Origin: Polyangiaceae bacterium
GTDB taxonomy: Bacteria > Myxococcota_A > Polyangia > Polyangiales > Polyangiaceae
DNA: 36,131 nucleotides
Direction of reading: 5' to 3'
Assembly (NCBI GenBank): GCA_009780955.1
Contig: WQZB01000050.1
Location: 1 to 36,131 of the forward strand
Positions 11,007 through 35,804 of this stretch are shown one piece after another. Position 1 is the stretch's first letter; each line of letters begins with the position of its first letter. Under the pieces are notes generated by a model. The model ran no database searches. It saw only the letters and a program-made list of their open reading frames with translations, and was not told the DNA's origin. The position numbers and the translations under genes were made by a program.

Positions 11007-11013
11007 CTTCGCG

Positions 11014-11934: not shown

Positions 11935-11999
11935 TGGGACTGTTCGCTTTCGCGCTTTCACTCTTTCACGTAGGCCTTGCGTCTTCGATTTCTACTTCT

Positions 12000-12401: not shown

Positions 12402-12458
12402 GGTTGTTTTTGGTTCTGTCGCGGCTGTCACGTACGGCACGTTTGACGCGACTACACG

Positions 12459-14539: not shown

Positions 14540-15177
14540 GCGCCCTCTCCCGTCGCGTTTGTTGGCGCGTTCGCACCCGCAGCGCTTTCGAGGTCTTGAC
14601 CGCCTTCGTTGTCGTCAGCAATGAACTCGAGACTCGTTGGGTGCAGATCTTCGAGAAGCATTTTCGTTTTGTCGACATGAAACTTTGGATCCGTCGCTTC
14701 GACCGAGACGAAGAACTTGTCGTTCGAAAAGCTCTCAAACCGCGCTGAGTTGAAAATGGGGTGATGGTGGCGCGGAAGCCGATTGAGTCCGAACATGCCA
14801 AGCACGGTCGCAAAAGCCGACAAAAGAATCGTAAGCTCGAACATGATGGGAACCATGGACGGCAAAGACGCAACCGACGCAGGCTTGCCGCCGATGATGA
14901 TCGGATAGTCGATGTTGTTCATCCAATGCATCATCAAAAAAGCGAGCGCTGTGCCACTTAGCCCAATGGGAAAAACAATGAGACCAAGCTTGCTGTCGGA
15001 CAAGCCCATGGCTTGGTCCATGCCGTGAACAGGAAACGGCGTGTGCGTGTCAAATTGTGTGTAACCTGCATCGCGAAGTTTCTCGGCGGCGTGCAGGCAC
15101 TCGCCCGCCGTGTCGAACTCGGCCAGGAGAAGGGCTGGTTCGCTCTCGCCTTCGCGAACGTGCTGCATGTTCGTCAT
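14536..15177 (-). CDS. actD: Alternative complex III subunit ActD (DUF3341)
   Basis: 213 residues. ATG 15177 overlaps the actC stop (ATGA), with a strong GGAGG seven bases upstream; a longer in-frame extension is Arg-rich and antisense-like. The N-terminal domain ([20 protein letters not shown], then [20 protein letters not shown]) is the DUF3341 signature. Two membrane helices follow ([20 protein letters not shown] and [20 protein letters not shown]), then the [11 protein letters not shown] motif conserved in ActD. The C-terminus extends in an acidic, Ala/Asn-rich tail. The subunit has no redox centre and has a structural role in the membrane part of the complex. Confidence 0.94.
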
Positions 15178-16616
15178 GACGAAGCCTCCGCTTCCGCGAT
15201 CGCGCCAGCACTTTCGTGGTCCTCGTGGCCGCCGTCGTCGTGGCCGAAGTGCGGATCGGCCTCGGGCATGACGCCTTTGACTTCGGCGATGGCAATCATT
15301 GGCACCCATCGAATGAAGAGAAGGAATGCCGTGAAAAAGAGGCCGAGCGTGCCGGCATAGGTGAATATGTCAATCAGCGTGGGACGGAAGTAGCCCCAAC
15401 TCGATGGAAGAAAGTCGCGGTAGAGCGAAGTCACGATGATGACGAAGCGCTCGAACCACATGCCGATGTTCACGAGAATCGACACAACGAACATGACCGG
15501 TATGCTCGTGCGGAATTTCTTGAACCAGAAAACCTGCGGGCTAAGAACGTTGCACGAAATCATGATCCAATACGCCCAGGCCATTGGACCGGTGAGGCGG
15601 TTGTTGACGAACAAGAAGCGCTCGTACTGGTTGCCACCGTACCAAGCGATGAAAAACTCCATCGCGTACGCGTAACCAACGAGGCTGCCGGTCGTGAGGA
15701 TGATTTTGCTCATCAGCTCGAGGTGCTTCATGAGCACCAAGCTCCGCATGCCATAAACGGCGCGCGTAATGAGCATGAGCGTCATCACCATGGCAAAGCC
15801 GCTGAAAACAGCGCCCGCAACGAAGTACGGTGGGAAGATCGTCGTGTGCCACCCCGGCATGAGCGAGGTCGCAAAGTCGAACGAAACGACCGAGTGAACC
15901 GACAAAACCAGCGGCGTGGAAAGTGCCGCGAGAATTAAATACGCGCGCTCATAATTTTGCCAGTGGCGGTTCGAGCCGCGCCAGCCAAGAGCAAGAGTGC
16001 CATACACGATGCGGCGCACTCGGTTTTGGGCGCGATCACGCAGCGTGGCAAAGTCGGGAACCAGGCCGACGTACCAGAACAAAAGCGAAACGGTAAAGTA
16101 GGTGCTAACCGCAAAAACGTCCCAGATGAGCGGGCTTTTGAAGTTTGGCCAAATGCTCATCTCGTTTGGCAGCGGAAGCATGTAGTACGCATGCCAAATG
16201 CGACCGACGTGAATGCCGGGAAAGATCAAAGCGCAGATGACGGCAAAAATTGTCATGGCTTCGGCGAAGCGGTTGATCGCCGTGCGCCACTTTTGGCGGA
16301 ACAGAAACAGAACGGCGCTGATGAGCGTGCCCGCGTGACCAATGCCGATCCACCAGACGAAGTTCGTGATGTCCCAAGCCCAATAGACAGGCGCGTTGTT
16401 TCCCCAAACGCCGATGCCGTGCCAGAAAAGGTACGCAACCGCTGTGAGGAGGATGCCGGTGAACGACGCTGCGAGCAAGAAAGCGACCCACCAGCCACGC
16501 GGTGCCTTGTTCTCGGTCACACGGCAAACGGTGTCGGTGACTGTTTTGAACGTCGTCCCCTCACCGACGAGCGGCGTTTCGCCAATGGCTTTGATCGGAA
16601 GATTCCAAGCGCTCAT
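15174..16616 (-). CDS. actC: Alternative complex III subunit ActC (NrfD-like quinol-binding membrane subunit)
   Basis: 480 residues. ATG 16616 lies three bases after the actB stop, with GGGAG about nine bases upstream. About ten hydrophobic helices. Segments characteristic of ActC include [23 protein letters not shown], the [20 protein letters not shown] helix, [46 protein letters not shown], and [26 protein letters not shown]. These residues form the quinol site and a putative proton path near the FeS subunit in the NrfD/PsrC family. The C-terminal tail is His/Asp/Glu-rich ([15 protein letters not shown]). It overlaps actD by four bases. Confidence 0.96.
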
Positions 16617-16619
16617 GGC

Positions 16620-19600: not shown

Positions 19601-19970
19601 GAACCGACGCGTAGTAGCTCGGCCTGCCTGGCAACACGTGCTCGGGCGCCTTGCTATAAGGCAGGATTTTCTCAACCGGGCGGCGCGCACAACCCTCGGC
19701 AAAAAGAGCTGCAGACGCGCCCGCAAAAAACATGAAGCCACGCCGACCAACTGTGCTGCCTGCGCTGCGCTCGTTGCCCGCGTTCGCGATCTGGGCAGCA
19801 ACCGAAGCATTGCTTGCTTCTTCAAGGCCGAGCGGGAACTCGACTTCAGCCCGCGCCTGCGCAAGAGCAGGGTTGGCTTTGTCTTCGAGGCTTTTCCAGA
19901 AAACCTTCCCGCCATCGGATGCGGACGGGCTGTCTGATGCGAGAGAAGGCTGCGATTCTTGGCGGCTCAT
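16620..19970 (-). CDS. actB: Alternative complex III subunit ActB (fused molybdopterin-oxidoreductase-like and FeS domains)
   Basis: 1116 residues from ATG 19970, which overlaps the actA stop (ATGA at 19967-19970); an upstream in-frame extension has no support. The N-terminus has FWKSLEDKANP, usual in ActB, then an internal twin-arginine signal GRRGFMFF (Arg76-Arg77), a hydrophobic core and a lipobox-like LFAEGC (Cys94). This suggests Tat export and lipid anchoring. The middle (about 100-800) resembles molybdopterin oxidoreductases but in this family has no cofactor. The last part (about 870-1075) has the ferredoxin motifs CTGCSACVIAC, CVQCEEAPCENVC, CIGTRYCANNC, CSYC and CQQACP, fitting three 4Fe-4S clusters and one 3Fe-4S cluster as established for ActB. 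It passes electrons within the complex. Confidence 0.97.
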   Translation of the reverse strand: MSRQESQPSLASDSPSASDGGKVFWKSLEDKANPALAQARAEVEFPLGLEEASNASVAAQIANAGNERSAGSTVGRRGFMFFAGASAALFAEGCARRPVEKILPYSKAPEHVLPGRPSYYASVLSARGDALGVLVESHEGRPTKVEGNPAHPSSMGATSAFAQAAIYDLYDPDRSTTPMKRVGAQAAHAQASIADFDAALGEIIRVATADGGTKLRFLIPPTNSPTLLRLRDAVRAKLPKAQFHSWAPVNDANVHEGGRIAFGAPTAVLANLEDADVIVSLDSDFLGTETGSVRMMRDFAERRKLPDGPEKSAMNRLYVVEPTFTVTGMNADHRLRLAAHDIERYLLLLAKELSAQGVDLGGIKDVIAKADGAGIPANWLKVVAKDLRTKHGRSAILVGARQPARVHALAHAINAVLGSVALLHYSVADAQTVDPAVSIKQLVTDIDKSAVSALVILGGNPVYDAPFDVHFGDKLHRVATTVHVSSHFDETSEMCSWHVPRALELEAWGDQRALDGTVSIQQPLIAPLYNGRSDIEILARFAGENAPKGYDLVQATVRGSAPSPTLFTGMWNDSLKTGVIRSKTGVMRGQEVSLADPSKVRHADIVSAFAQAKAPNQGGNAPFSKDNLEITFAPCSRLYDGRYANNPILLELPDPLTKITWDNVALVSQKTADELGVQSRQMVRLTRAGADPVDVAMWIVPGQADHSIAVYLGWGRQKAGRYGNKHGFNVGGLRTTDAMWFASGLKVDKLGAGEIAAIADRYRRVGLAATDSPVAGRVRPDSPFDVETNLYKISQTQDHNAMEGRPIAIDATLEEYRKNALFPFFASNVVANDEHNGRKDIDLHNDNVDVRGSGSPDPLVPPLWPTVDYSQNQKWGMVIDLSACTGCSACVIACQVENNVPAVGKEQIERGREMSWLRIDRYFVGIDANDPQISFQPVACVQCEEAPCENVCPVNATAHSPEGLNDMAYNRCIGTRYCANNCPYKVRRFNFLNYHTSGGMYDDVPETEKMRFNPNVTVRMRGVMEKCSYCVQRIQEAKIRAKRTGKPKVGEGELKVACQQACPADAIAFGDLNDRTSRVARWYGIDRSYRLLTELGTRPRTTYLGKIRNPNPEMGA

Positions 19971-20593
19971 CGGTGACACCCGGAGCAGTGCTGTGGGGGA
20001 TGAACATCGGGGGCGGCCCAATTCGCCGCCATCTCCGGCTTCCATTCCATGTTCGTGATTTGATCCTTTGGCCGGAGATTCGGCTTTGGATCGCGATGAC
20101 ACTCAAGGCACCAACCCATGCCGATAGGCGCTTCGGCACGCACGGTCTCCATCTTGTCGATGCGACCGTGGCAGGTGACGCAGCCAACGCCAGCGGCGAG
20201 GTGAGCGCTATGATCGAAGTAGGCGTGATCGGGCAACTTGTGGATCTGCACCCATTCGATCGGCTTGCCGCTGTCCCAACTCTCGCGAACGAGCGCAAGG
20301 CGGCCACTGTCTGCCTTCACGAGTGAATGGCAACCCATGCACACCTGCGTTGGCGGGAGCATCGCTTTTGCGGCGACCTCGACGTTCACGTGGCAGTACC
20401 GGCAGTCCATACCCATTTGCCCGACGTGGAGTCGATGCGAATACGGCACGGGCTGCGTTGGTGCATAGCCGACCTGGAAATTTTTCGGCGTGAGGTAGTA
20501 CCAAATCGCACCGATCAAAAGGACCGGCACGATGGTGCCCACCCCTCCAAGGATGAGCGGGAGCTTGTTTAGCGACCGGGGAAAGATCTGCAT
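19967..20593 (-). CDS. actA: Alternative complex III subunit ActA (pentaheme cytochrome c)
   Basis: 208 residues from ATG 20593 (MQIFPRSLNKLP). In-frame starts further upstream, up to 20716, would run into the predicted promoter. One N-terminal membrane helix (about residues 12-33) anchors a periplasmic domain with five CxxCH sites: CRYCH 64-68, CMGCH 85-89, CVTCH 138-142, CLECH 162-166 and CSGCH 203-207. The five sites and the motifs PVPYSHRLHVGQMGMDC and HKLPDHAYFDHSAH are diagnostic of ActA. It accepts electrons from the FeS clusters of ActB. First gene of the twelve-gene operon, with about 90 bases of untranslated leader if the promoter at 20687-20716 is used. Confidence 0.96.
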   Translation of the reverse strand: MQIFPRSLNKLPLILGGVGTIVPVLLIGAIWYYLTPKNFQVGYAPTQPVPYSHRLHVGQMGMDCRYCHVNVEVAAKAMLPPTQVCMGCHSLVKADSGRLALVRESWDSGKPIEWVQIHKLPDHAYFDHSAHLAAGVGCVTCHGRIDKMETVRAEAPIGMGWCLECHRDPKPNLRPKDQITNMEWKPEMAANWAAPDVHPPQHCSGCHR

Positions 20594-20869: not shown

Positions 20870-21811
20870 TCAAGTCATACCCAGCGCAGCAAAGAGCAGC
20901 ACCAAGTAGGCGATGCTGACTCCAAAAAGCGACCGCGCCCAACGCACGCCGCTGCCCTCGCGAAGCCCGTAACAGCTCCACGTAAAGAAAATCGCGCCGA
21001 GCAGACTCGCAACAATGAGATAGCCGTGGCGGGCAACGCCAAGCGGGACGAGAAACAGACTTGTGGCAACGCACGCGAACACCCAGCGAACGATCGTGTG
21101 GCGGCAGGCGAGCTCGCCAGCCACATTCGGCAGAACCACGAGCCCGGCGCGCTCGTATTCGGTTTTACGAAAGATGGCGATCGCGACAAAATGCGGAACT
21201 TGCCAAAGGAACAGGACGCCGAAAAGAACGATGCCAATCGCGTTGACACTTCCGGTGGCTGCTGTCCACCCGAGCAGCGGTGGGATGGCACCAGGAATCG
21301 CACCAACGTAAATCGCGAACGCCGAACGCTGCTTCATCGGCGTGTACGCAAGTACGTAAAGCAGGTTCGCCAAAAGCGCGAGAAGTGCCGTCAACAGATT
21401 CGCGGCTGTCGCAAGGATGGCAATGGCCAGGACCGAACAGGCGACCCCGAACCAGAACGCAAAGCGCGGTGCCATGCGTCCGGCCGGCAGCGGGCGACTG
21501 CTGGTGCGCGGCATTTGACGATCGATGTCGCGCTCGATGTACATGTTGAGTGCGTTCGCACCCGCCACGACGAGCGCGATGCCCAAGAGCGTCGCGAAAA
21601 CCGCCAGGGGCGAAGTTACCGCGTGCTCCGTCGCGTAATCTGACGCGTGTTCTGGCGCGTGTTCTGGCAAACGTTTCGAAAGAAGCAGCCCACCCGCTGC
21701 GGTCACAACGACCATGAACGTGACCCGCGGCTTCGTCAGCGCAACAACATCACGAAACCAAACTTGCGCGGGTTTCGCTCCCCGAATTGCACCGGCGAAC
21801 GGCTCGTGCAT
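20870..21811 (-). CDS. ctaB: Protoheme IX farnesyltransferase (heme O synthase)
   Basis: 313 residues from ATG 21811; an in-frame TTG at 21838 would add nine residues. The enzyme adds a farnesyl group to heme b to make heme O, the precursor of the heme A needed by the oxidase encoded downstream. UbiA-family polytopic membrane protein with about eight helices. The prenyl-diphosphate/Mg site follows the UbiA signature exactly: NMYIERDIDRQM with Asn89, Glu93 and Asp97, then PRTSSRPLPAG up to Gly111. LAYTPMKQRS and a second acidic region near KTEYERAG fit the family. Between the first two helices there is a short tandem repeat (residues 49-64). No heme A synthase (ctaA) gene lies in the window. 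Confidence 0.95.
   Translation of the reverse strand: MHEPFAGAIRGAKPAQVWFRDVVALTKPRVTFMVVVTAAGGLLLSKRLPEHAPEHASDYATEHAVTSPLAVFATLLGIALVVAGANALNMYIERDIDRQMPRTSSRPLPAGRMAPRFAFWFGVACSVLAIAILATAANLLTALLALLANLLYVLAYTPMKQRSAFAIYVGAIPGAIPPLLGWTAATGSVNAIGIVLFGVLFLWQVPHFVAIAIFRKTEYERAGLVVLPNVAGELACRHTIVRWVFACVATSLFLVPLGVARHGYLIVASLLGAIFFTWSCYGLREGSGVRWARSLFGVSIAYLVLLFAALGMT
21621..21668 (-). repeat. Four 12-base imperfect tandem repeats inside ctaB
   Basis: Four consecutive 12-base units occur at 21621-21632, 21633-21644, 21645-21656 and 21657-21668. The last two are identical and all begin GCGT on the plus strand. On the coding strand they give PEHA-PEHA-SDYA-TEHA, residues 49-64 of CtaB, in the loop between the first and second membrane helices. 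The repeat keeps the frame, so copy-number changes would lengthen or shorten the loop without breaking the protein. Confidence 0.75.
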
Positions 21812-21822
21812 GGCGGGCGGCG

Positions 21823-21851
21823 GTGATACGGAGGGCAACTCGTCGAGTCAA
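21823..21851 (-). promoter_or_regulatory. Possible ctaB promoter giving a very short leader
   Basis: On the minus strand TTGACT (21851-21846) is followed by a 17-base spacer and TATCAC (21828-21823). The match is good at -35 (five of six) and moderate at -10 (four of six). Transcription would then begin only a few bases before the ATG at 21811, giving a nearly leaderless message, consistent with the lack of any ribosome site there. It argues against the TTG at 21838 as start. The divergent 221-base gap (21812-22032) shows no clear promoter for the giant gene on the plus strand. Confidence 0.3.
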
Positions 21852-22032: not shown

Positions 22033-25000
22033 ATGCAATCGTCGTCGCCGCCGCCACGTTCGTCCCGCGTTGGATTCCTGTCATTCGACGCCACCAAGCT
22101 TGAAAACGAGGAGGAGGTGCTCAGCGCCATTCTGCTCGCAATCTCGAAAAACCAGCTCGATGCCGAAGTGTGGCGCGATTTGCACGCCGCCGCCATCCGC
22201 GACAACCGGGTAGCCGAGCTCGCCTTCGCCTACGACGCCGTTGCGCACGGCAGAAAACTGCGCGCGCTGCCCCCTATGGTGCAGGCAGAACTCTATTACC
22301 GAGCCGGAACATTCTTTTGCGACGTGCTTGGCGACGATTTCGGCGCAACCACGTATTTCGAGAGAGCCCTTCGTGCGTTTCCCGCACACCCAGGCGCGTT
22401 CGAGCGCATTGACGCGCTTCTGACGCGAGCCGAAGACCACACAAAACTTGCCGATCTCTGCATTCAAACCGCAGCGCACTGTTCGAAGACCGATCAGCGA
22501 GTGGTACTGCAGCGCGCAGCGGGCCTTTATGAGCGCGCAGGCCTCGACGACAAAGCCATCGAGACCTACCAACAGCTCGTACGCCTCGACCCAACCGACG
22601 AATCGGCGCGCGATCTGCTCGAAGTTCGCTACGTCAAAGTAGGCCGCTACCGTGATCTCGCGCGAATGCTCGAGCAAGCGCTTGCTGCGCTCCCCCTACC
22701 CGACGCGGGGGCCCCACCCGACGTGGGAGCCATTCGCGTGCGCGCGAAACTCATCGACGTTTTCGCCAACCACCTCAAAGAACCCGAGCGCGCCATGGCC
22801 CATGTGGAAGCCGTGCTCGCAGTAGACCCCGCGCAAAGCGAAGCACGTCGCGTTGCCGGGAGCCTTCTCGACAACAAAGGCCTTGCCGCGCGTGCAGCAG
22901 CAGCCCTCGCCGCGGGAGCCGAATCGACCGAAGAGCGCGCACACCTGTACGGCATCGAGCTCGAAAATACGCGCGGGCCGCGGCGACGAGACGTGCTCCG
23001 GCGCATCGGCATTCTCAAGCAGGACGAGCTGTCGGATTTCGCCGGCGCGTTCGAGGCGTTCGAGCAGGCCCTTGGTATCGATCCGACCGACGACGAGCTG
23101 CGCGTGCGCTACGCAGAACTTGGTTGCAAAATCAAAGGGCCGCTCGAAGTCGCCAAAGTATTCGCTCGCGTGTACACCGTGGCCAAAGACTCCGCCGTCC
23201 GCTCGCGCATCACGGCCGAAATGGGCACCTTGCTCCTTCGCGGTGGCGACGCCAAGCGCGCACGCACGACGCTTGCGGGCGTGCTCGTTGCACCCGGCGC
23301 CGACTCACGGGCCGTGCTCATCGCGGCGCGCGCCCTGACCGATGTGTACGAGGCCGATCAGGACACCAGAAGTCTCACCGATGTCTTGTCGCGCATCGGT
23401 GAAATCAGCACCGACGAAGCCGAGCGCCAGCAAGCCAACGAGCGCGTTGCCGAACTCGCTGCCAACACCGGCGACGTCGACCAAGCCATCGTCGCGTGGC
23501 GGCGGCTCGTCGACACCCCGGCACACAGCCGCGCCCTCGCAGCGCTCGAACCGCTCTACGAACGCCGCGGCGAGTGGCACGACCTGTCGTTCGTCCTTGC
23601 AGAGCGCGCCAAAGAACTACCCGACCGAGATCAGGCACGCGCACTGTCGATGCGTGCCGCCGAGGTCCTCACGACGAAAACGAACAACCTTGCCAACGCA
23701 ACCGAGGCATGGCGCCAAATCATCGAAGCGTACGGCCCCGCACGCGACGTCTACGCGAAGTGGATGCCTCTGCTCGAAACGCAGCGTCAGTGGAGCGAGC
23801 TTGCCGTCGCGCTCGTCAACGATGCGAGACTTGCCCCCGAAGAACAAAGGCCCGCAATTTTCGCACGCCTTGGAACTGTGCATATTACACGTATTGGCGA
23901 CGTGGATGCCGCCATCGAAGCATTTCGCAACGCGCTCGAAGGCAACCCACAGGAAAAAACCAGCCGCGCAGCTCTTGAAAAACTGCTGCTCGCTGGAGAA
24001 AGGAGACTCGCAGTCGCCGCCGTTCTAGAACCTGTCTACCAGCGCGACAACGACGACCAAAGCCTTCTTCGCGTGCTCGACGTCAAGGCGCTCTTGTTGC
24101 CGGCGGTGGGCGACAGGCTTGCCGTGCTCGAGCAGGCCGCAGATCTCGCAGCCCGGCACTCGCGCGACAAGGCTCTCGACTTCGTCCGCCGCGGCCTCGT
24201 CGAAGCCGTCGAGAACGAGGAGAATATCCAAGGTTGGCTTGACCGCTTCGACAAGTTCGCGGTCGACGCCGACCCCAAGAAGCGTGCGGCGATACTTTCG
24301 AGCGCGCTCGGTGAGCACGAAATCGACTCTCACGAGCTCGTGCTGCTCGCCAAACGCGTAGGCGAAGAGCACGCCGCGTCGGGCAACGTTGCAGCAGCAC
24401 TCGCAGTGCTCCGCCGTGCGCTTACCTGCGAGCCTTCGTCCGCCGAGCTAATCGGACGCGTCGACGAGCTATTGCGCGAACAAGGCACCCCCGAAGAACG
24501 TGTCGCGCTCTTTCGCGCAGCGCTCGAACAGAACCCCGACCCAGCACGCCGGCAAAAACTTTTGCACGCCATCGGCAGCGTCGAGCGGCACGAGCTCGCA
24601 AACACGAGCGCCGCCATTCTTGCGTACAGGCACGCGCTGAAAGACGACAGCACCGATACCGCTGCGTTCTCTGCGCTCGCGGAGCTGTACGAAGAAACCG
24701 AGGCTTGGGACGCGCTAAGCAACATCCTCGCCGATCGCCTTCCGCGTGCGGCGTCGAAGGAAGAAACACGCCGTATTCGTACGCAGCTTGCCGACATTGC
24801 ATGCGCGCATGACCAGCACGATCGGGCGATTGCGCATGCGTGGGAGCTGCTCGCGGATCCCGAGCTCGGTGGTCCGGAGCTCGATCTCGTCGAGCGTGTC
24901 GCTGTCACGACGGCAAACCATGATCTGCTGCGCGCTCTGCTCGAACGACGTGCCTCCAACGCGACCGATCCAAAAGCGCAAATCGAGTGTCTCACGCGTC

Positions 25001-28000
25001 TCGCCACACTCGCCGAAACGACGGGCAGCACCGATCTGGCCACCGCACGCCTCCGTCAGGCCGCGGACATGGCGCGGAGCGCCGGCGACGACACGAATGC
25101 CATCACGCTTTTCGATCGTCTGCGCGGCCTGAACGCGCGCGACCGAGACGCAACGACCCAGCTCGCGGCGCTCCACGAACGCGCCGAGAACTGGGCGACA
25201 CTCCCAGCCCTGTACGACGCCCTGGTCGACATCGCCGAGAGCGACGACGAGCGGGTTGCGTGGCTCCGAAAACTCGCTGGCACACTCGCCGATCGTCTAG
25301 GCAATGCCCCCTCGGGCTTCACGGCTCTCGCAAAAGCTTTCGCGATCGAGCCGGGCGACGCGACGCTGCTCGCCGAAACCGAAGCGCTTGCGCTGCGTGC
25401 GTCACGCGAACGCGAGTTCTCTCGTGTGATCGACCAAGTCCTCGAACACCATCCCGATTTGGCCCGCGGCGCAGCGCTCGATCTGGGCATGGCGAAAGCA
25501 CGCGCCCTGGCAGCTCGGCCCTCCACGGCGGGCGAAGCAGCAGTCGCATTCCGCGACGTGCTCGACAAGGTCGACGACGTACGCCTCAGGCCCGCCATCG
25601 AGGGCTTGGAAGCGGTCCTCGGCAACATGGAACCAAGCGCCGAGCGCACCACATGGGTACGCTGGCTCTTCGCATTCCGAGTCGCGCGGGCGCTGCCCGA
25701 GCAGCGTTCGCGGGTGCTCTTCGAGGCGGCGATGGCCGAAGAGCGCGAGCTGTCCGACCCGAAGGCAGCCCTCGACATGTACCGCCGCGTCGTCGAACTC
25801 GATCCCAATGATCTCGATGCGCTCTCGGCGATTTCGCGTCTGTCGCTGGCAGAAGGTGATGTCGAGGGAGCCATCGAGGCGCTCGTCGCATGCCGAAGCA
25901 CTTCCGAAGGCGCTGCGGGCAACGCACTCGATGTGCAAATTGCAAATATTCTCTTTGAACGCGGCGGCCGCGGGCACGAAGCCCTCGAGCGCCTCGAGCG
26001 GGTTTTCGACGATGCCCCGCACGACGCAGACGCGATCGAACTCGCGGCAAAGCTTTCGACCGATCCGAGTCTTGGAATTCACGCCTCCGCGGTGCTCGAA
26101 AAGGCGCTCGACACAATCGACGATCCGGCCGTATTGGTCGACGCCCTTGGTCGTCTGCTTGCCCATCGCGAGCTCGACGCCGACCTGCGGTTTAGTCACT
26201 ACGAGCGACTGCTCAAAACACTTATTTTGCTTGGTCGCAACGCCGATGCCTACGAGGTCGTTCTTGCCGCGTGCCGCGAATCGCCAAGCCAACCTGCGCT
26301 GTGGGATCGAGCCGAAGCGATCGCGCAAGAACTGTCATTGCCCGAGCCGCTCGCCGAACTCTACACGCGCGTACTCACGACGGACACGACGGATCTGCCG
26401 AAAGACAAAGCCATCGATCTTGGACAGCGCGCAGTAGCGTTTCACGAAGAGTGGTTCGACGACGACGATCGCATCATTGGTCTTCTCGAACGCCTCGTCG
26501 AGATCGATCCAGAGAACGAGTGGGCGTTCGATAGGCTCAAGCTCATCTTCGACTCGCAAGAGCACTGGGACGACTTGTTCGCGCTCTATGATCGCGCCGC
26601 GCACAGTGCCCCTCGCCAGCGCCGCATCACCGTGCTTGAAGAAGCCGCGCAAGTCGCCAAAGACTTTGCGGACCACCCTAAGCGCGCCATTGGCTACTTC
26701 GAAGAGCTTCTCGAGCTCGAGCCGGGCAACGCGCAATTCGAAGGAGCCCTCGAACGCCTGTACGATAGGCACGGGTGCTACCGCGAGCTCATCGTGCTGC
26801 TCGGTTCGCGCATCGCGGTGTTGCCCCACGATCTCGGGCAGAAAGAGCGCGCTCGCATTGCGGGCCTTTGGCTGAACGAGCTATCGGACACATCGAGCGC
26901 GATCATCGTGGTCGACGATCTGCTTGCTCATCAGATCGAAGGCGACGACGAGGGCATCGACGTCGTTGGTTTGCTTGAACGCATTCTCGCGGCCGCGCCG
27001 CACGCCGAGCAAGTGCAAGAGCGCGCCGCCCAACCGCCCGAGGGTCACCGCGATTCGTACGCACCTGTGGCCAAAGCACGCGGGCTCGTGCGTCAGCGCG
27101 CAGCCGCTTTGCTCAGAGACCGTTACAGCGCCATATCGCAAAAGGCAGATCTCGCACGGGTGTTGGAGGTACAGCTCGAAGCCGTCGACGACGGCGCCGA
27201 GCTCGCCCGGCGCCACAAGCAGATTGCCACGCTGTACACCGAGCTTGGCAAGGACGATCGTGCACTCGATCACGTTGTAAAGCTCGTTCTTCTCGAGCCA
27301 GCCATTTTCGAATACCGCGCAGAGCTCGCAGCCATCGTTGGGCGCACGGGTCGCTACGACCGGCTCGTGGAAGTGCTCGTTTCGGCGGCCGATGGCACCG
27401 AGGACAAGGCTCTACAAGTCGAGCTTTTGATGGGTGCCGGCGTCGCTGCAAAAGAGAAAATTGGCGACAGCGTCCGCGCGATCGAACTTTTTTTCCGCGT
27501 TCTTTCTGTGTCGCCCACAGCCGACGCGGTGCTGCTCGAGGCGTGCCGCGAAGTCGAACCACTTCTCGCCCAAGCCAGCCGCCGCGAAGATCGCCTCGAC
27601 GTTCTCGAGAAGCTCGCGATTCTCGAGCAAGACACAGGCACACGCGTGCACGTTCTCGGCGAAGCGGCGCGCCTTGCAACCGAGCTCGAAGAGCATGACC
27701 GCGCCATCTGGGCGTGGGAAGGTCGGCTCGAAACGTCGCCGCACGATCGCGAGGCGATCGACGGACTCGCCCAGCTATTCGAAAAGACAGAGCGCTGGAG
27801 CAAGCTCGTTGGCGTGCTCGGCAGGCGCGCGGATCTCGGGGAGCCCGACGGTCCGCTTTCGAGCGACAGGCGAGCGGATCGCGTGCGCATGGCGCACATC
27901 CAAAGCGACAAGCTCGAGGCAAGTTTCGATGCCATTGGTACCTGGCAACAAATCGAGTCGCTCTTTGGCGACTCCGACGAGAGCACTCGCGCACTGGCCT

Positions 28001-31000
28001 CGCTCTTCCGCACGACACGGCAGTGGAACGAGCTCACCGAGCTTCTCGGCCGCGCGGCTTTGCGGAGCCAAGTCGGAACCGAAAAAGCCGACATCCTGCG
28101 TGAGCTCGGTGACGTGCAGCGCCTCGAGCTAAATTCCGAGGCGGCTGCCATTGCAAGCTACGAAAATGCCCTGACGGCCGATCCGCACAACGAGGGATCG
28201 CGCGTCGGCCTTCACGCACTGCTCGCGCGCCTCGAGCAACGTTCCGACGTGGTTCGCGTGCTGCTCGCTGCGTACTACGCGGCCGACGATTGGCAGCTCG
28301 TGGTCGACTTGACCGAGCAACGTTTGAGTTGCGCGAGCGACCAAGCCGCGCAGATCGCCATCCTCACGGAAGCTGCAAGCATCTCCGAAACGCGCGCCCA
28401 CGATGCTCGGGCAGCCTTCGCGCTCACGCGACGCGCCTTGCTCGTCGATCCGAACAGCACGCCGGTGCTCGACGAGCTTTTCCGGCTCGCGGCAGCCACG
28501 GACAATTTCCGATCGCTTGCAGACACACTGCGCGAGTGCATCGACGCGGCGCCTATCGAGAAAAGCGAGACAGGCGAGCAAGAGATTGCTCCGCCGTGGA
28601 TCGACGGCCATCGCTTCCGCATGGGCGAGGTGCTTGAAACGCACCTCGGCGAGCCGCGCGCCGCGCTCGAGGCATTCGTTGCAGTCGCTCAGGCAACGCC
28701 GTCAAGCATCGAAACGGCGCGTGCCGTGATCCGCACGGCAGCCCTCACGTTCCGCTGGGACGCGGCGGCTCACGCGCTCGTCGAAACGACGCGCGCCAGA
28801 GGTGCGCTCGAAAGCGAGCTCATAGTCGCCATCGAGCAAGCTGCCGAGAGCGCGAACGGATGGGACGCGATGACCTCCGCGACCACGTCGCTCATTCATG
28901 ATGGCGGCGGTCTCGCTGCCTCGCTTGCACGAGATCTCGAGGCCACAATCGCTGTTTGGCATCGCGACAGACGCGGTGACCCGGGCGCTGCGGAAGCCGC
29001 CTATACGCGTGCACTCAGCTTCGATCCAACGAACGCCGAGCTCCTCGCACCGCTCGCGCAACTGCAACGCCGCGCCAAGGGCCGCCCGCTCGTCGACAGC
29101 CTTCTTCGGCTTTCGCAGGCAACAGGCGGAGACCTGGACCTGCTGAGCGAAGCCGCAGACGTAGCCTTCACAAGCATTGGGGATCGCGATCTGTCGAAGT
29201 CAATCTTCGAACAGTTGCTTCAACTTGCAATCGATCGCTGGACGAACGTACCCAACGCGCCCGTCGCGATTGCCGGGGCGCCCGGGGCATCGAGCAGTTT
29301 GGGCGACTACGTCCAGCACGCGATGCAGAAGCTCGTGCACATCTACAGCGACGAAGACAACTACGACAAGGTCGTGACGTTGCTGGTCGATACCGCGTCC
29401 TTGCCGTGGGAACGAGAACGAGCGCGCGGGCTTCGTCACGAAGCCGCCGAAATTGCATCATCCAAGCTTGCTGCGTCGGATCGTGCGACCGGAATTTACC
29501 TTGGCCTCATCGACGAGGATCCACACGATGCGGTCGCGGTCGAAAGGCTAATTTTCATCTACAAGGCAGGCGCGCGCAAAGTCGAGTTGCTGTCGCTCGA
29601 AAGGCGGCTGACAGACTCGGCAAGAACCGCAGACGAGCGGCTTGCCCTTCGCCTCGAGGTTGCGTCGCTCGAAGACGAAGTCGAAAACGTGACTCAAGCG
29701 ATTGTCACGCTCGAGAAAAATCTCGCGGAGTCACCACGTCACCAAGCGTCGGTGAATCGCCTTGCAACGCTGCTCACGCGCGAGTCGAAGCACGAAGAGC
29801 TCGAGTCGCTCTTTGCCGGGCAGGCCGCACTCGCCGAGGCAGGCGCGGAGCGTGAGCTTGCTGCCAACCTCTACGAACATGCGGCCAACGTAGCGGAACT
29901 CAAGCTCGGCGACGTGTCCAAGGCGATTGGTCACCTGCGCCGAGTAGTCGACCTCGAACCGCGCCCGTCTGCTCTCGATGCACTCGCACGCCTGTCCACG
30001 AGCACGGGCGACTACAACGGCGCTGCAGGCTACCTCGATCGGCTGCGCGACATGACGCTCGACGCCAGCCGCGCAACCATTACGTTGCGCCTCGCCGATG
30101 CCCTGACGGCCGCCCATAGAAAAGCCGACGCGCAAGCGCGCCTCGAAAACGAAATTGCGCGCGATCCCGATGCCGACGATGTCCGCATGCGCCTTGCCGA
30201 CATCTACCGGCATGCTCAGTCTTGGTCGCACCTTGCCTTGCTCTTGACCGAGGGGGCAGCGCACGCACCCGACAAGGCAATGCGCCTGTCGCGCCTGCAG
30301 GAAGCCGCCGAGCTCCATCGCGACCGCACGGGCGAACCCGAGCTCGCAATCCCGCTGCTCGAGCAGGCCTCCGAGCTGGCACCGGATCAAAGTGCGGTGA
30401 AGCTCGCACTCGCCGATGCTCTTGGCGCAGCGGCCCGTTTCGACGAGGCGCAGGTCATTCTTCGTGCGCTCATCGACGCGTTCGGCCGGCGCAGACCCAA
30501 AGAGCGCGCGCTCGTGCATTATCATCTGGCGCGTATTCATCTTGCGGTCAAAGACCGTGCGCAGGCCCTCGTCGAGCTCGACGCCGCGTGGCGCATCGAT
30601 CCGATCGATTCTACGATTGTCCGCACACTCGCCGAGCTCGCCCGCGACGAAGGACAGCTCGAAAAAGCGGAACGTTCCTACCGCGCGCTGCTCACGCTTC
30701 TGCGCCGCCAAGAAAATCCAACCGACGAGACACTGGTAACGCGATCCGACGTTCTCTTCGAACTCTTGCAGATTGCACGTCGGCAAGGCGAAGTCGATCG
30801 CGCAGGCGAAATTCTCGAATCTTTGTTCGAGCTTGGAGCGAAAAACCAAGTCGAGGCGCGCCGCCTCGAAGCGGCACTACGCAAAGCAAACGACCATGCG
30901 AGCCTTGCCCGCTCGCTCGAATCGCGCCTCGCGCGTGCTGGGTACGTTGCAGGCAGCGCCGACCTCGACCAACTCCGCTCGCTTGCTCTTCGCATGGACG

Positions 31001-34000
31001 ACGCGGCAAGCGTATTTTCCGATCTTGGACGCCTGTACGAAACAGTGCTCGGCAGGAGCGACGATGCGCTTGAAATGCGGATGAGCGCACTTGAAATGGA
31101 TCCATCGTCGGCCGATTTGCATCACGATGCACGCCGCCTTTCGAGCGCCCTTGGCAAGGCAAAGGTCTACGAGGACCGGGTGCGCGCTCTGGCCGATCAC
31201 GAAGGGCGACCCGAAGTCGCGAGCGAACTATTCGTTCGTCTCGCACGCATCGCCGAAACCGAAAACGGCGACAACACCGAAGCAGCATCGCTATACGAGC
31301 GGGCGTTTGCCGTTCGCCAAGACGATCGCGAAGTGCTCACCGCGCTCGATCGCGTCTACGAGCAGAGCGGCGACTACGCAGGCCAAGCCCGCGTGCTCGG
31401 CATGCGCGTCGCCCTGGACGCCGCGGACGGAGGCGCTTCTTCCTCGACGCTCTACCGACTCGCCGAGCTTCGCTTCCGCTCGGGCGACGTCGAAGCCGCG
31501 TGCGACGCCTTCGAACAAGCTTTCGAGAGCAACCCCGACGCCGAGCGCGCCGAAGATCTCTTGCGCGAAGCCGCCAAGGCACACCCGCAAAGCGAGCGCA
31601 TTCTCGAAATTTACGAGCGGCTCGCGCGCACGCCAGGCCGTGAGCGAACACTCATCGACGTTCTTATGCGCAAGTGGAACTTGCCCGGTCAAGGAACTGA
31701 TTCGGTGCGCGAGGCCGCTGTCATCGCGCAAAAAATCGGCGACACCAAGCTCGCCGAAGAGTTGCTGCGAAAGTGGCTCGAACGCGAAAAGCACGACGAC
31801 GATGCGGCACGTGTCTGGGCGCTGTCACTCTTGTCGACAATCTGCGAGGGCGACGGACGCACGCGCGAGGCCGCGCTTCTCAAACGTGCTGCCGCCAAGA
31901 TCGCCGAGCCGGGCGACGCGAAACGCCTGCTCATTGAAGTTGCTGCGCTCGCTGCCGGGGCGCTCGACGACTTGCAATTGTCAGCGTCGATTTACGAAGA
32001 CCTGCTCGCGCGCGATCCTGCTGACAGAGACGCATGGACACCGCTGCTCGATGTTTATCGCAGGCTGGAAGACTTCCCAAAGCTCGCAGCGCTTTTGGCC
32101 GTTGTGATTGGAAGTATGGACGACGTCGGCGAGCGCTCGAAGCTTCGTCTCGAGCATGTGCGCATCGGTGTGGAGAAGTTAGGCCTACCAGACGACGACG
32201 CGGCTAACGAGCTTCGTGAAATCGTTGACGACGACCCGTCGTCCGTCGAAGCAGCCGTGCTCCTTGGCACGATCCTCGAGCGGACTGGCCGCGACGCCGA
32301 TCTCGCCGACTTGCTCTCGCACCAGCTCGACACCGCAAGAGATCGGAAGGACGCCGAGGCTGTGATCTCGCTTTCGCGACGCCTTGGCGCTCTCCTCGAG
32401 CGAACGAATCGCAATCAAGCTTGCGTCGTTTACTACGCGGCGCTCGACTGGGATCCGCAGGCGCCAGATCTTCTTTTGGCGCTCGAGCGGCTCCACGAGC
32501 AAGAGGGCCAGCAAAGTGCTCGCGCCGAAATCATGGAGCGTCGGCTTGCACTCGCAACAGGCAGCGAGGCCGAAACGCTGGCCCTCACCCTGGCCGAAAT
32601 TCGCGACCAGAAGGGCGACGCGGAGGCAGCCATGCGCGCCCTCGAGATCGGCTTCCGGTCGTTGCCAGAGAGCCATAACCTCGAGAGCCGACTCGAGGCG
32701 CTCTACCGCGAGCAAGGCGAGTACGAAAAGCTTGCCGAACTCTACGTGCAAAACGCACGCAAATGCCCCGATGGCCGCATAAGGGCAGAGCGCCTGCGCG
32801 ATGCTGCACGCATTTACAAGGACGAATTGTCGGACGTCGAGCGCGCCGCCACCGTACTTCGCGAAGCTCGCTCATCCGATCCAACGAACGCACTGCTCTT
32901 CGAACAACTCATCGAGGTGCTCGTCAACGCGGGTGACTTCGTGGCAGCCGACCACGAGCTCGCAGGAGCGCTCGAAGGCCTGGCAGCCGACGACCCAACG
33001 CACCTGCGTCTCATCGTGCGCCGTGCAACCGTGCGGGCGCGCACGAGCAACGTCAAAGGCGCGCTGATGGACTTCGAAGAAGCGCTCGCCAAAGGCGCCG
33101 TCGAAGTTCGTGGTCCGCTCGCCCAGCTCCTTGGCAAGATGGCCGTCGCAGCTGCAGGGCGTGGCGACACCGCCGAGTGGCGAAAGTGCAGGCTTCGCAT
33201 CGCCGACCTAAGGCTCGCGATGGGCGAGGTTGCGGAGACACGCGATGTTCTGACCGAGCTTGCAAAGACCGACGCGAAGGATCGAACCGTTTTGCGCGCC
33301 TTGGCGAGCCTCGACGAGCTCGAAGGGCACTGGGAAGCAGCAAGCGCAACGTACCGGCGCCTCGTTGGTCTCGAAGAAGGTGAGGGCATCGTCACTGCTG
33401 CATTCAAGCTCGCCGAGACATGCGAAAAGGCCAATCGCCTCGAAGACGCGCGCAGCGGCCTCGAGCGCGCACGCGTGGCAGCTCCGAACAACGTCGAGCT
33501 GAGGCAGCGACTTCTGTGGCTTTACGAGCAACTCGGTGCGCACAAGGAGCTCGCAAACCTCGTGCTCGAAGAAGCGCGCGCATCCCGCGACACTGCCCAG
33601 CGCTTCGAAGGGCTCGTGCGCGGCGGGCAACTGCTCCTCGCGCAAGCGCAAGATCCCACGGCAACGACGCAGATCGACACGTCGCTCGCCGTAAGGCCGC
33701 TCGAAGAGGCCCACGCGCTTCGCCCCGCCGATCTCGACTGCGCCGCGCTGCTCTCGGATGCCTACGTGGTTGCGGGACGCATCGACGACGCCGAGCAGCT
33801 GCTCCATCGAACCATTGCGACCTTCAAGGGGCGCCGCGCACGCGAGCTGTCGGCCTTCTACCACCGACTGGCACGCACAGCCGAAATCCGCGGAGATAAC
33901 AGCGCCGAACTCGCGCACCTCACAACCGCACTCGATATGGACGCCCAGAACGGTGTCGTGGCAACCGAGCTATCGTACCTCGCGATGGAAATTGGCAATT

Positions 34001-34212
34001 GGGACATCGCCCAGCGTGCCCTGCGAGCCATCACCATGATGAAAGCGCCCGCCCCACTGTCGAGAGCGCTCGCCTACCAGCACCTCGGTGAGATTGCTCG
34101 CACCCAAGGAGACGACAAGCGAGCGGCAAGTCTGTTCAAACGCGCACTTGACAACGATCCCACGCTCGAAAGCGCGCGCGCGCTTTACGAGGAGCTGCAA
34201 GCATCGAACTAG
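22033..34212 (+). CDS. Giant tetratricopeptide-repeat protein, 4059 residues
   Basis: One uninterrupted frame of 12,180 bases, from ATG 22033 (no clear ribosome site; no upstream in-frame alternative) to TAG 34210-34212. There is no signal peptide, membrane helix, CxxCH or catalytic motif, so it is probably cytoplasmic. Almost the whole length is alpha-helical repeats. A helix ending like A-x-x-x-Y-x-x-x-L-x-x-D-P is followed by a helix like L-x-x-L-Y-x-x-x-G-x-W-x-x-L and by a helix beginning R-A-x-x-x-x-R-A-A. I count about 40 such anchors by eye (for example RRVVELDPNDLDALSAI, ERLVEIDPENEWAFDRL, KRALDNDPTLESARALY), roughly one per 100 residues, i.e. super-units of about three hairpins. It is Ala-, Arg-, Asp-, Glu- and Leu-rich with few Cys and Trp. 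Very long TPR proteins of this style occur in Myxococcota; a scaffold role is inference. Divergent from ctaB. Confidence 0.93.
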   Translation: MQSSSPPPRSSRVGFLSFDATKLENEEEVLSAILLAISKNQLDAEVWRDLHAAAIRDNRVAELAFAYDAVAHGRKLRALPPMVQAELYYRAGTFFCDVLGDDFGATTYFERALRAFPAHPGAFERIDALLTRAEDHTKLADLCIQTAAHCSKTDQRVVLQRAAGLYERAGLDDKAIETYQQLVRLDPTDESARDLLEVRYVKVGRYRDLARMLEQALAALPLPDAGAPPDVGAIRVRAKLIDVFANHLKEPERAMAHVEAVLAVDPAQSEARRVAGSLLDNKGLAARAAAALAAGAESTEERAHLYGIELENTRGPRRRDVLRRIGILKQDELSDFAGAFEAFEQALGIDPTDDELRVRYAELGCKIKGPLEVAKVFARVYTVAKDSAVRSRITAEMGTLLLRGGDAKRARTTLAGVLVAPGADSRAVLIAARALTDVYEADQDTRSLTDVLSRIGEISTDEAERQQANERVAELAANTGDVDQAIVAWRRLVDTPAHSRALAALEPLYERRGEWHDLSFVLAERAKELPDRDQARALSMRAAEVLTTKTNNLANATEAWRQIIEAYGPARDVYAKWMPLLETQRQWSELAVALVNDARLAPEEQRPAIFARLGTVHITRIGDVDAAIEAFRNALEGNPQEKTSRAALEKLLLAGERRLAVAAVLEPVYQRDNDDQSLLRVLDVKALLLPAVGDRLAVLEQAADLAARHSRDKALDFVRRGLVEAVENEENIQGWLDRFDKFAVDADPKKRAAILSSALGEHEIDSHELVLLAKRVGEEHAASGNVAAALAVLRRALTCEPSSAELIGRVDELLREQGTPEERVALFRAALEQNPDPARRQKLLHAIGSVERHELANTSAAILAYRHALKDDSTDTAAFSALAELYEETEAWDALSNILADRLPRAASKEETRRIRTQLADIACAHDQHDRAIAHAWELLADPELGGPELDLVERVAVTTANHDLLRALLERRASNATDPKAQIECLTRLATLAETTGSTDLATARLRQAADMARSAGDDTNAITLFDRLRGLNARDRDATTQLAALHERAENWATLPALYDALVDIAESDDERVAWLRKLAGTLADRLGNAPSGFTALAKAFAIEPGDATLLAETEALALRASREREFSRVIDQVLEHHPDLARGAALDLGMAKARALAARPSTAGEAAVAFRDVLDKVDDVRLRPAIEGLEAVLGNMEPSAERTTWVRWLFAFRVARALPEQRSRVLFEAAMAEERELSDPKAALDMYRRVVELDPNDLDALSAISRLSLAEGDVEGAIEALVACRSTSEGAAGNALDVQIANILFERGGRGHEALERLERVFDDAPHDADAIELAAKLSTDPSLGIHASAVLEKALDTIDDPAVLVDALGRLLAHRELDADLRFSHYERLLKTLILLGRNADAYEVVLAACRESPSQPALWDRAEAIAQELSLPEPLAELYTRVLTTDTTDLPKDKAIDLGQRAVAFHEEWFDDDDRIIGLLERLVEIDPENEWAFDRLKLIFDSQEHWDDLFALYDRAAHSAPRQRRITVLEEAAQVAKDFADHPKRAIGYFEELLELEPGNAQFEGALERLYDRHGCYRELIVLLGSRIAVLPHDLGQKERARIAGLWLNELSDTSSAIIVVDDLLAHQIEGDDEGIDVVGLLERILAAAPHAEQVQERAAQPPEGHRDSYAPVAKARGLVRQRAAALLRDRYSAISQKADLARVLEVQLEAVDDGAELARRHKQIATLYTELGKDDRALDHVVKLVLLEPAIFEYRAELAAIVGRTGRYDRLVEVLVSAADGTEDKALQVELLMGAGVAAKEKIGDSVRAIELFFRVLSVSPTADAVLLEACREVEPLLAQASRREDRLDVLEKLAILEQDTGTRVHVLGEAARLATELEEHDRAIWAWEGRLETSPHDREAIDGLAQLFEKTERWSKLVGVLGRRADLGEPDGPLSSDRRADRVRMAHIQSDKLEASFDAIGTWQQIESLFGDSDESTRALASLFRTTRQWNELTELLGRAALRSQVGTEKADILRELGDVQRLELNSEAAAIASYENALTADPHNEGSRVGLHALLARLEQRSDVVRVLLAAYYAADDWQLVVDLTEQRLSCASDQAAQIAILTEAASISETRAHDARAAFALTRRALLVDPNSTPVLDELFRLAAATDNFRSLADTLRECIDAAPIEKSETGEQEIAPPWIDGHRFRMGEVLETHLGEPRAALEAFVAVAQATPSSIETARAVIRTAALTFRWDAAAHALVETTRARGALESELIVAIEQAAESANGWDAMTSATTSLIHDGGGLAASLARDLEATIAVWHRDRRGDPGAAEAAYTRALSFDPTNAELLAPLAQLQRRAKGRPLVDSLLRLSQATGGDLDLLSEAADVAFTSIGDRDLSKSIFEQLLQLAIDRWTNVPNAPVAIAGAPGASSSLGDYVQHAMQKLVHIYSDEDNYDKVVTLLVDTASLPWERERARGLRHEAAEIASSKLAASDRATGIYLGLIDEDPHDAVAVERLIFIYKAGARKVELLSLERRLTDSARTADERLALRLEVASLEDEVENVTQAIVTLEKNLAESPRHQASVNRLATLLTRESKHEELESLFAGQAALAEAGAERELAANLYEHAANVAELKLGDVSKAIGHLRRVVDLEPRPSALDALARLSTSTGDYNGAAGYLDRLRDMTLDASRATITLRLADALTAAHRKADAQARLENEIARDPDADDVRMRLADIYRHAQSWSHLALLLTEGAAHAPDKAMRLSRLQEAAELHRDRTGEPELAIPLLEQASELAPDQSAVKLALADALGAAARFDEAQVILRALIDAFGRRRPKERALVHYHLARIHLAVKDRAQALVELDAAWRIDPIDSTIVRTLAELARDEGQLEKAERSYRALLTLLRRQENPTDETLVTRSDVLFELLQIARRQGEVDRAGEILESLFELGAKNQVEARRLEAALRKANDHASLARSLESRLARAGYVAGSADLDQLRSLALRMDDAASVFSDLGRLYETVLGRSDDALEMRMSALEMDPSSADLHHDARRLSSALGKAKVYEDRVRALADHEGRPEVASELFVRLARIAETENGDNTEAASLYERAFAVRQDDREVLTALDRVYEQSGDYAGQARVLGMRVALDAADGGASSSTLYRLAELRFRSGDVEAACDAFEQAFESNPDAERAEDLLREAAKAHPQSERILEIYERLARTPGRERTLIDVLMRKWNLPGQGTDSVREAAVIAQKIGDTKLAEELLRKWLEREKHDDDAARVWALSLLSTICEGDGRTREAALLKRAAAKIAEPGDAKRLLIEVAALAAGALDDLQLSASIYEDLLARDPADRDAWTPLLDVYRRLEDFPKLAALLAVVIGSMDDVGERSKLRLEHVRIGVEKLGLPDDDAANELREIVDDDPSSVEAAVLLGTILERTGRDADLADLLSHQLDTARDRKDAEAVISLSRRLGALLERTNRNQACVVYYAALDWDPQAPDLLLALERLHEQEGQQSARAEIMERRLALATGSEAETLALTLAEIRDQKGDAEAAMRALEIGFRSLPESHNLESRLEALYREQGEYEKLAELYVQNARKCPDGRIRAERLRDAARIYKDELSDVERAATVLREARSSDPTNALLFEQLIEVLVNAGDFVAADHELAGALEGLAADDPTHLRLIVRRATVRARTSNVKGALMDFEEALAKGAVEVRGPLAQLLGKMAVAAAGRGDTAEWRKCRLRIADLRLAMGEVAETRDVLTELAKTDAKDRTVLRALASLDELEGHWEAASATYRRLVGLEEGEGIVTAAFKLAETCEKANRLEDARSGLERARVAAPNNVELRQRLLWLYEQLGAHKELANLVLEEARASRDTAQRFEGLVRGGQLLLAQAQDPTATTQIDTSLAVRPLEEAHALRPADLDCAALLSDAYVVAGRIDDAEQLLHRTIATFKGRRARELSAFYHRLARTAEIRGDNSAELAHLTTALDMDAQNGVVATELSYLAMEIGNWDIAQRALRAITMMKAPAPLSRALAYQHLGEIARTQGDDKRAASLFKRALDNDPTLESARALYEELQASN

Positions 34213-34258: not shown

Positions 34259-35242
34259 ATGAAAAAGTCATTTTGGATTCCTATTCGGACTCGCGCAAAA
34301 AGATGCCTGTCTTTGTATTCCAGGCATTCCAAAGGAATGGGCGCCCTCATGCTTTTCTTGGGCTTGATTTTCCTACCGCACTCGGCTTTTGCCGTGATTT
34401 CGGAATCGGGCACAAAACCCATCGTCGTAGCGTATTTCAATGGGATGTGGACGACCGAGGAACGAGCCGAAATCGGGAAGAATGCCGTCATCGATTTGAT
34501 GGGCACCAACCAAAACGGTACTCCGCTGGATTACGAGCTCTTTTACAACCAAAACGACTCCACACTGATAGATCTTGCCGAAACCTTCGAGCAACGCAGC
34601 AAGGAACTCGACGGCGTGCTCGCCGATCGCTGGGAAATCTTCTGGGAAATACTCGACGGCAGGCACACCGAAAGCCATTCGCTTACCGCAAAGCTGCTCA
34701 ACGGACTCGGCGCCGACGGCCGCGCGCTGGCCCCGTTGATTGACGCCACCTTCAACGCGACCCTAGCCAAGTTCGTAGCCATCTGCTCGGAGCCTGTAGG
34801 TACCCCGTCCACCGAAGCCGATTACGCGGCGCACTTCGCCAAACTCAGCGAGCTTTCCAGCCAGAGCAAAGGCTTCGTGCTGGTGGGCTCTTCGCAGGGC
34901 ACTCTGTTCGTCAACCACAACTACGACACCTTCCTCGCCGCCTATCCGGAGTTCACCCTCAACACCAAAACGGCGTTTATAGCGCCGGCCTCGCCCACAA
35001 CCCGGCCCGAGGGGGGAGACGATAGCAATTATATTTTGTCATCCAATGACCTGGTGATCGGTGCGCTGCGCCTCATGGGCGGCGCAAAGCCGAACAACAT
35101 AACCATTGCGCCGAGCTCCAAAGACATCGGTGGTCATGCGCTCATAGAAACTTACCTAGATCCCGATCGCAATGGGCGCGCCAGAGTGCAGGAGATTATT
35201 TCTACGGCACTCGATGCCGTCAACGCGGCGCCGCAACCGTGA
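34259..35242 (+). CDS. Secreted serine-hydrolase-like protein (alpha/beta hydrolase type), function unknown
   Basis: 327 residues. ATG 34259 has AAGG nine bases upstream; the frame is open further upstream, but that part overlaps the giant gene. A long basic N-terminus (IPIRTRAKRCLSLYSRH) leads to a hydrophobic core ALMLFLGLIFLPHSAFA, a probable signal peptide cut near residue 46. The mature protein starts with a strand (PIVVAYFNGMW) and has a nucleophile-elbow motif FVLVGSSQG with Ser212. GGHALIETYL near the end offers His293 as the catalytic His. The order Ser then His near the C-terminus fits alpha/beta hydrolases, but no closer family is recognised and the acid residue is not obvious. The lipoprotein gene follows after 19 bases. 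Confidence 0.7.
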   Translation: MKKSFWIPIRTRAKRCLSLYSRHSKGMGALMLFLGLIFLPHSAFAVISESGTKPIVVAYFNGMWTTEERAEIGKNAVIDLMGTNQNGTPLDYELFYNQNDSTLIDLAETFEQRSKELDGVLADRWEIFWEILDGRHTESHSLTAKLLNGLGADGRALAPLIDATFNATLAKFVAICSEPVGTPSTEADYAAHFAKLSELSSQSKGFVLVGSSQGTLFVNHNYDTFLAAYPEFTLNTKTAFIAPASPTTRPEGGDDSNYILSSNDLVIGALRLMGGAKPNNITIAPSSKDIGGHALIETYLDPDRNGRARVQEIISTALDAVNAAPQP

Positions 35243-35261
35243 GCTCGTAGGAGAAAAGAAG

Positions 35262-35804
35262 ATGACACCACAAATCACGTTTTGGGGTGCAGCTCGCCTT
35301 GTCCGCACCGCCACGTACGCGGCTTTGCTTGTCGCATTGACCGCCTGTGGGAAAAGCAATGCTGACTCGTCTGTACTGAAATACCAGATTGCTACTTTGG
35401 AAAGTAACGGCACGCTGCCAAAACTCGATCGATCGAGCGACGTGGCCGGGATCGACACCAATGGCAACGACGTGCGCGACGACATCGAGGCGTGGATCGA
35501 CGCGCAGCCCGTCACCGACATGCAGAAAACGGCACTGATGCAGAATGCACGGGCATTGCAGCACACGCTAACGGTCGACCTGACGGACCAAGCCGCGCTG
35601 GGCAGCGTGGGAGCCGAGATTGTGGCAGCCATCCACTGTGGTGTCAGTCGTTTCTCGACCTTTGCCGACTTTTACAAATACAGCCAAAATCTCGAAGCCA
35701 TTACCGCCAACACGAAAAACCGGGCCGTTCGCTATATCCAATACAATAATGCCCGCTCAGGAGCGGTCAATTCGACGCCTGATTACGATACCTGCACGCC
35801 GTAA
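35262..35804 (+). CDS. Hypothetical lipoprotein with a calcium-loop-like motif
   Basis: 180 residues. ATG 35262 has a strong GTAGGAG eight bases upstream. The signal (RLVRTATYAALLVALTAC) ends in lipobox LTAC with acylated Cys29, and the next residue, Gly30, does not suggest inner-membrane retention. A segment GIDTNGNDVRDDIEAWI (residues 63-79) has the D-x-N-x-N-x-V-x-D-D pattern of calcium-binding loops found in many secreted bacterial lipoproteins. The rest is helical and unrecognised; it ends NSTPDYDTCTP. It is 19 bases after the hydrolase-like gene and certainly in the same operon. The pair may act together at the cell surface, which is inference. Confidence 0.75.
   Translation: MTPQITFWGAARLVRTATYAALLVALTACGKSNADSSVLKYQIATLESNGTLPKLDRSSDVAGIDTNGNDVRDDIEAWIDAQPVTDMQKTALMQNARALQHTLTVDLTDQAALGSVGAEIVAAIHCGVSRFSTFADFYKYSQNLEAITANTKNRAVRYIQYNNARSGAVNSTPDYDTCTP

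Follow-up and report, generated by a model that had tools for sequence, protein, structure and literature searches.

Among the motility proteins of M. xanthus, GltI (also AgmK, MXAN_4863) is a TPR protein of 4132 aa with no signal peptide or transmembrane segment, whose gene belongs to the gltD-E-F-G-H-I-J cluster and came up in screens for motility (PMC3169522). A 2026 review describes GltI as a large scaffold which, together with GltG, links AglQ to MreB (PMC13104615). The group-A glt genes, that of GltI included, can be present in several copies in Myxococcales, so giant paralogues as such are not new; duplicated clusters of the machine do not stand in for the motility genes and have taken other functions (PMC3169522).

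The window analysed here, a stretch of 36,131 nucleotides, is contig C50 of a 4.2-Mb genome (98.7% complete). We refer to its giant gene as A and to the two other giant TPR genes of the same genome as B (contig C85, 3698 aa) and C (contig C6, 3835 aa). Gene A and its parts are laid out as follows:

22033-34212, + strand: gene A, giant TPR alpha-solenoid protein, 4059 aa, ~446 kDa, pI ~5.0
22033-22107, + strand: disordered N-terminal tail, residues 1-25 (pLDDT <50 at residues 1-21)
22108-34209, + strand: helical solenoid of ~54 two-hairpin units of 71-76 aa (occasionally 89), reaching the last residues
23011-23076, + strand: low-confidence solenoid break, residues 327-348 (pLDDT <50 in the model)

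Gene A is a single, uninterrupted ATG-to-TAG frame of 4059 codons. Pfam searches along the protein returned TPR families (TPR_19, E 2.5e-42), with ARM_TT21 among the matches; the remaining matches above cut-off are all TPR or TPR-like helical repeats. Over the full length Pfam found no enzymatic domain, no segment reaches transmembrane strength (hydropathy >1.6 in no 19-residue window), and the N-terminus (MQSSSPPPRSSRVGFLSF...) is not signal-peptide-like. An earlier note on this DNA had described one intact frame of 4059 residues, filled with TPR-like repeats and free of enzymatic, membrane or export elements; the frame, which has stop-free orthologues elsewhere, the Pfam families and the repeat profile described below, and the inspection of hydropathy and N-terminus uphold this description. 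The protein also falls below every curated cut-off of MamA, PrsT, LapB and the other NCBIfam TPR equivalogs, and a search of PADLOC-DB for anti-phage defence gave no match.

The same note had proposed ~40 super-units with a period of ~100 residues. Autocorrelation of A peaks at 17, 34 and 72 residues and then at 234, and self profile-profile alignment built on 13 orthologues gives lags of 70-76, 89, 163, 217, 234, 305, 377-380 and 456. A profile of two hairpins (consensus ...RRALLRRLAELYEDELGDPDAAIEAYERALELDPTDAEALAALERLYEAAGRWAELAALLERALEAAED) gives 56 matches, partial or full, that tile the protein at a median single-step spacing of 72.5 residues (50 steps), and 48 units are found at iE<0.01 compared with 0-1 in each of 20 shuffles; the profile used is the first one, of 78 columns, an iterative HMM having been dropped after it drifted to double or triple units. 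Given this spacing and the lag maxima, the super-unit of A is two TPR hairpins of ~72-76 residues, present in ~54 copies (~113 hairpins). The 100-residue period was rejected, as autocorrelation, profile self-alignment and unit spacing all disagree with it, and spacing and tiling likewise replace the count of ~40. That the units have diverged in sequence does stand, and the divergence is strong: at lag 72 substitution scores average just -0.55 (expected, -0.77). BLAST self-comparison of A returned no internal copies; profile methods find many, and we read the BLAST outcome as a limit of that comparison only.

Structure prediction of pieces of the protein, a check the earlier note had suggested, gave purely helical models. 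A was modelled with AlphaFold2 at both ends, with residues 1001-3060 covered by the repeat profile: residues 1-1000 (pLDDT 84.5) and residues 3061-4059 (pLDDT 88.0) each form 55 helices and no strands, which extrapolates from these two end models to ~227 helices in the whole protein. Its Pfam TPR matches, its lags of 17/34/72 and these models identify A as a TPR alpha-solenoid. The break at residues 327-348 may be a modelling fault and not a linker, because the sequence there resembles an ordinary unit (residues 311-386 match the repeat with iE 2e-22). Within the genus the N-terminus follows the pattern 'R.SR.G..SF..KLENEEE', with R12, G14, S17, F18 and T21-E28 invariant in four orthologues.

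When conservation among orthologues is averaged per unit position, it peaks at packing positions (the TPR-consensus A, L and P), and the classical TPR inner groove shows no conservation peak that would indicate a conserved ligand groove. As conservation tracks packing residues, we claim no common repeated ligand for A. Local patches, such as those at residues 309-333, 389-413, 1497-1521 and 3889-3913 (82-84% identity; mean, 55%), are candidate binding sites. The top PDB matches in Foldseek are TPR scaffold subunits of IFT-A, SKI and PAF (Ctr9), with TM-scores of ~0.10-0.26. Like A, the eukaryotic subunits IFT139/TTC21, SKI3 and Ctr9 are long TPR superhelices, and theirs hold large complexes; at 12-14% identity and with such low TM-scores, these matches fit a scaffold mode but show no kinship, and no common descent beyond the TPR is claimed.

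B and C share the double-TPR unit of A, at 72-73 residues. Profile-profile comparison aligns A 254-4057 with B 18-3698 (E 3e-223) in a preferred register (score 2062; next register, 1638). In eight relatives the A-B alignment ends just a few residues short of both C-termini, and A has ~3 N-terminal units that B lacks. This full-length preferred register makes it well supported, from sequence profiles, that A is an end-to-end paralogue of B. The two are ~24% identical, and B is also found in other families of the order. B 62-3693 in turn aligns with C 65-3259 (E 1e-249). The profiles of A and C have no strongly preferred register (1069 vs 1005), so the tie of A to GltI runs through B. In trees A, B and C form clades with support of 1.0 each, and A+B is separated, again with support of 1.0, from a B-like giant of another class, which places the split between A and B later than the split from that class. 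These trees were built on repeat-rich alignments, and TPR proteins, A and GltI included, can come to resemble one another by converging on the consensus of the repeat.

The gene order around C connects the family to the glt cluster. Upstream of C are encoded a 1180-aa TPR protein (GltD-like), a 434-aa TPR protein (GltE-like) and a 717-aa FHA protein (GltG-like); the last matches NF033760 GltG over residues 7-715 (E 9.7e-84), under the strict equivalog cut-off. A complete genome of the other class (5.05 Mb, family f32) has the order gltD-gltE-gltG-giant, and this giant of 4156 aa aligns with C down to the last residue; a second giant in that genome groups with A+B. From the shared gene order and the tree we assign C, by synteny, as the counterpart of GltI/AgmK, B as a second old giant lineage and A as a later offshoot of B. 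A itself lies outside the glt cluster, by ctaB and alternative complex III (ACIII) genes or by glutamate synthase genes, and in the tree it stands with B (1.0), with C and the giant beside gltDEG on the other side. Each of the two small genomes (the window's and G010) also encodes two long GltG-like proteins, ~70% alike (G000:C6 and G000:C10; G010:C28 and G010:C96), only one of which adjoins a GltI-like giant.

A, B and C are thus all GltI/AgmK-type giants in the broad sense, with ~3.4-4.2 kaa, TPRs throughout, no signal peptide or transmembrane segment and collinear homology. Compared with GltI, through C as a synteny stand-in and not through the M. xanthus sequence itself, A is similarly giant (4059 vs 4132 aa), made of TPRs and devoid of signal peptide and transmembrane segments, and is related through C, which is alignable over most of B. 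It differs in lying outside glt clusters and in forming a separate Polyangiaceae clade, and it lacks the non-TPR C-terminus of C-type proteins. In C this part comprises ~350 residues (L038:4808-6127, + strand), for which no Pfam family or known domain was found; its H..YYHGQH recalls a degenerate metallopeptidase motif. A DUF374 lysophospholipid-acyltransferase-type gene overlaps the 3' end of B by a few bases (L036:130-11882, contig C85) and is also 3' of B in four relatives, and PlsC and diacylglycerol-kinase-like genes are near B in some genomes. With giant paralogues B and C and the known GltI/AgmK branch beside it, A is not the singular gene of wholly unknown kind that it had first seemed: it is a new lineage within the known kind of giant TPR scaffold. 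Our literature searches found neither the separate Polyangiaceae A clade nor its end-to-end tie to B described.

Full-length orthologues of A occur in 10 genomes (nine congeneric, one from the family) as stop-free frames of ~4.0-4.3 kaa with 50-69% identity to A over practically the whole length. Within the genus the length stays within ~2%, start-site calls aside; distant Polyangiaceae orthologues have 3900, 3472 and 2769 aa. Identity between A and its nearest orthologue is 0.79/0.84/0.54 at codon positions 1/2/3, by which measure A is under purifying selection. The earlier view of an old expansion kept by selection agrees with this third-position-weighted divergence and with the collinear orthologues. 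With the last 399 residues of A as the query, matches of ≥40% identity were obtained in at least 22 of 60 family genomes, a lower bound because the A and B types overlap below 40% identity. In 14 order-level genomes searched with A, matches were at paralogue level only. B and C extend into further families of the order, and the A clade was seen only in Polyangiaceae. In a class sample, TPR-type frames >3.1 kaa were listed for 34 of 39 genomes. Two small genomes, of 4.2 and 4.8 Mb, retain all three giants. Very large chance ORFs do also occur on the antisense strand in high-GC relatives, as would suit an artefact of merging or frame fusion, or a repeat gene in decay, but the collinear frames of ~4.0-4.1 kaa in 10 other genomes, the concentration of divergence at third positions and a repeat profile that spans the whole length of A leave such a reading a negligible chance, and we consider it ruled out by the comparative data.

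The immediate neighbours of A in the window are:

20870-21838, - strand: ctaB (heme O synthase), divergent neighbour of A (NCBIfam TIGR01473, 261.7 bits; cut-off 210)
34337-35242, + strand: small protein with a signal-peptide-like N-terminus, no Pfam match, 3' of A and not kept as a neighbour

ctaB and A form a divergent pair in 11 of 14 contexts, near relatives only; ctaB is absent beside A in three deeper family members (G014, G017, G023) and in each of 8 further family genomes. An ACIII/cytochrome oxidase operon lies behind ctaB in up to seven contexts. In the window this row (7505-20102, - strand) comprises ACIII genes (ActB, ActC, ActD and others), SCO1, COX2 with a fused cytochrome c, and COX1; it includes a 571-aa frame (12459-14174, - strand) with no Pfam match, which the gene caller did not accept as a single gene and at whose place relatives have an ActF-like gene. 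On the 3' side, two small secreted- or lipoprotein-like genes (34337-35804, + strand) have no Pfam match, and no homologues were found at that place in the relatives examined. In 8 genomes a J-protein and Hsp70 pair faces A from its 3' side, and glutamate synthase genes often come next. The J-domain protein of the pair has a small C-terminal helical part (L040:17892-20000, - strand; L065:9127-12207, + strand; six more), and the Hsp70 has a Pro-rich linker of ~300 residues between its ATPase and C-terminal parts. Neither of the two smallest genomes has the pair at this place, and no close homologue of that Hsp70 was found in the window's genome (best, 45% over the ATPase domain). None of the 8 further family genomes has the pair beside A, one of them matching Hsp70 weakly on the opposite side; in 4 of the 8, glutamate synthase genes (gltBD) are on the 3' side. 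Order-level neighbour calls were excluded, as the gene caller had the giant on the wrong strand. The search for neighbours kept by orthologues, which had been proposed earlier, thus returned no gene kept beside A across the family. Since no neighbour is general across the family, gene order names no partner for A, and ctaB, Hsp70/J, ACIII/cox and gltBD were all rejected as partners by this route.

These contexts bear on what A might do. Were A to assemble or place the respiratory complexes encoded nearby (ctaB, ACIII, cytochrome oxidase), its frequent position opposite ctaB, with ACIII/cox behind, would be accounted for; A stays, however, in the three deeper members and the 8 further family genomes from which this neighbourhood is gone, and we give this role hardly any credence. 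It is only slightly less improbable that A is a scaffold tied to chaperones, acting together with the Hsp70 and J-domain protein beside it. The pair at its 3' side in 8 genomes suggests such a link, but it is convergent to A and not co-transcribed with it, A is kept in the window's genome and G010 where the pair is absent, and wider family members lack it beside A.

A more substantial alternative makes A a direct part of the Agl-Glt gliding machine, a second GltI linking motors to the cytoskeleton. Profiles and tree do make A a paralogue of the GltI-type giants, and the window's genome keeps GltG homologues and four MotA/TolQ/ExbB-type genes. Yet the contexts examined showed no recognisable glt-motility or agl gene close to A, C is already there as the syntenic candidate for GltI and is 77-80% identical between species of the genus, with A less conserved, and duplicated clusters have taken other functions (PMC3169522); we consider this role unlikely. 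We instead think it probable that A is a cytoplasmic, non-enzymatic alpha-solenoid, a GltI/AgmK-family paralogue that is an offshoot of B and likely a multivalent scaffold. Kinship with the GltI-type family makes a scaffold with several partners the best guess for A, and among the points against a GltI-type scaffold is that A has no stable motility-linked neighbour.

By its end-to-end homology, A probably originated when the B lineage duplicated after the split from the other class, the A copy then diverging fast; it is now seen in Polyangiaceae. As a scaffold of the GltI kind it would be a very long, flexible superhelical rod with many binding sites and no catalysis. A canonical TPR superhelix has ~8 repeats and 6-7 nm per turn, from which A, if regular, would make ~14 superhelical turns and measure ~0.1 µm. 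By analogy it most likely holds several different proteins at a set spacing, as GltI is thought to. Its location would be cytoplasmic, as read only from the absence of a signal, and is probably along the inside of the cell envelope or at the cytoskeleton. We suggest more tentatively that A could form the backbone of a large, separate and so far undescribed machine in the Polyangiaceae: a ~0.1-µm rod split from the gliding-scaffold family that would set out its many partners along cytoplasm or envelope, its ~54 units being held genus-wide.

The three giants cost ~35 kb, a price paid even by small genomes, and among the giant TPR branches a role is known for GltI alone. With A and B set next to GltI, the question arises whether myxobacteria gained further cytoplasmic scaffolds by duplication of the gliding-scaffold giants, and what cargo these would carry.
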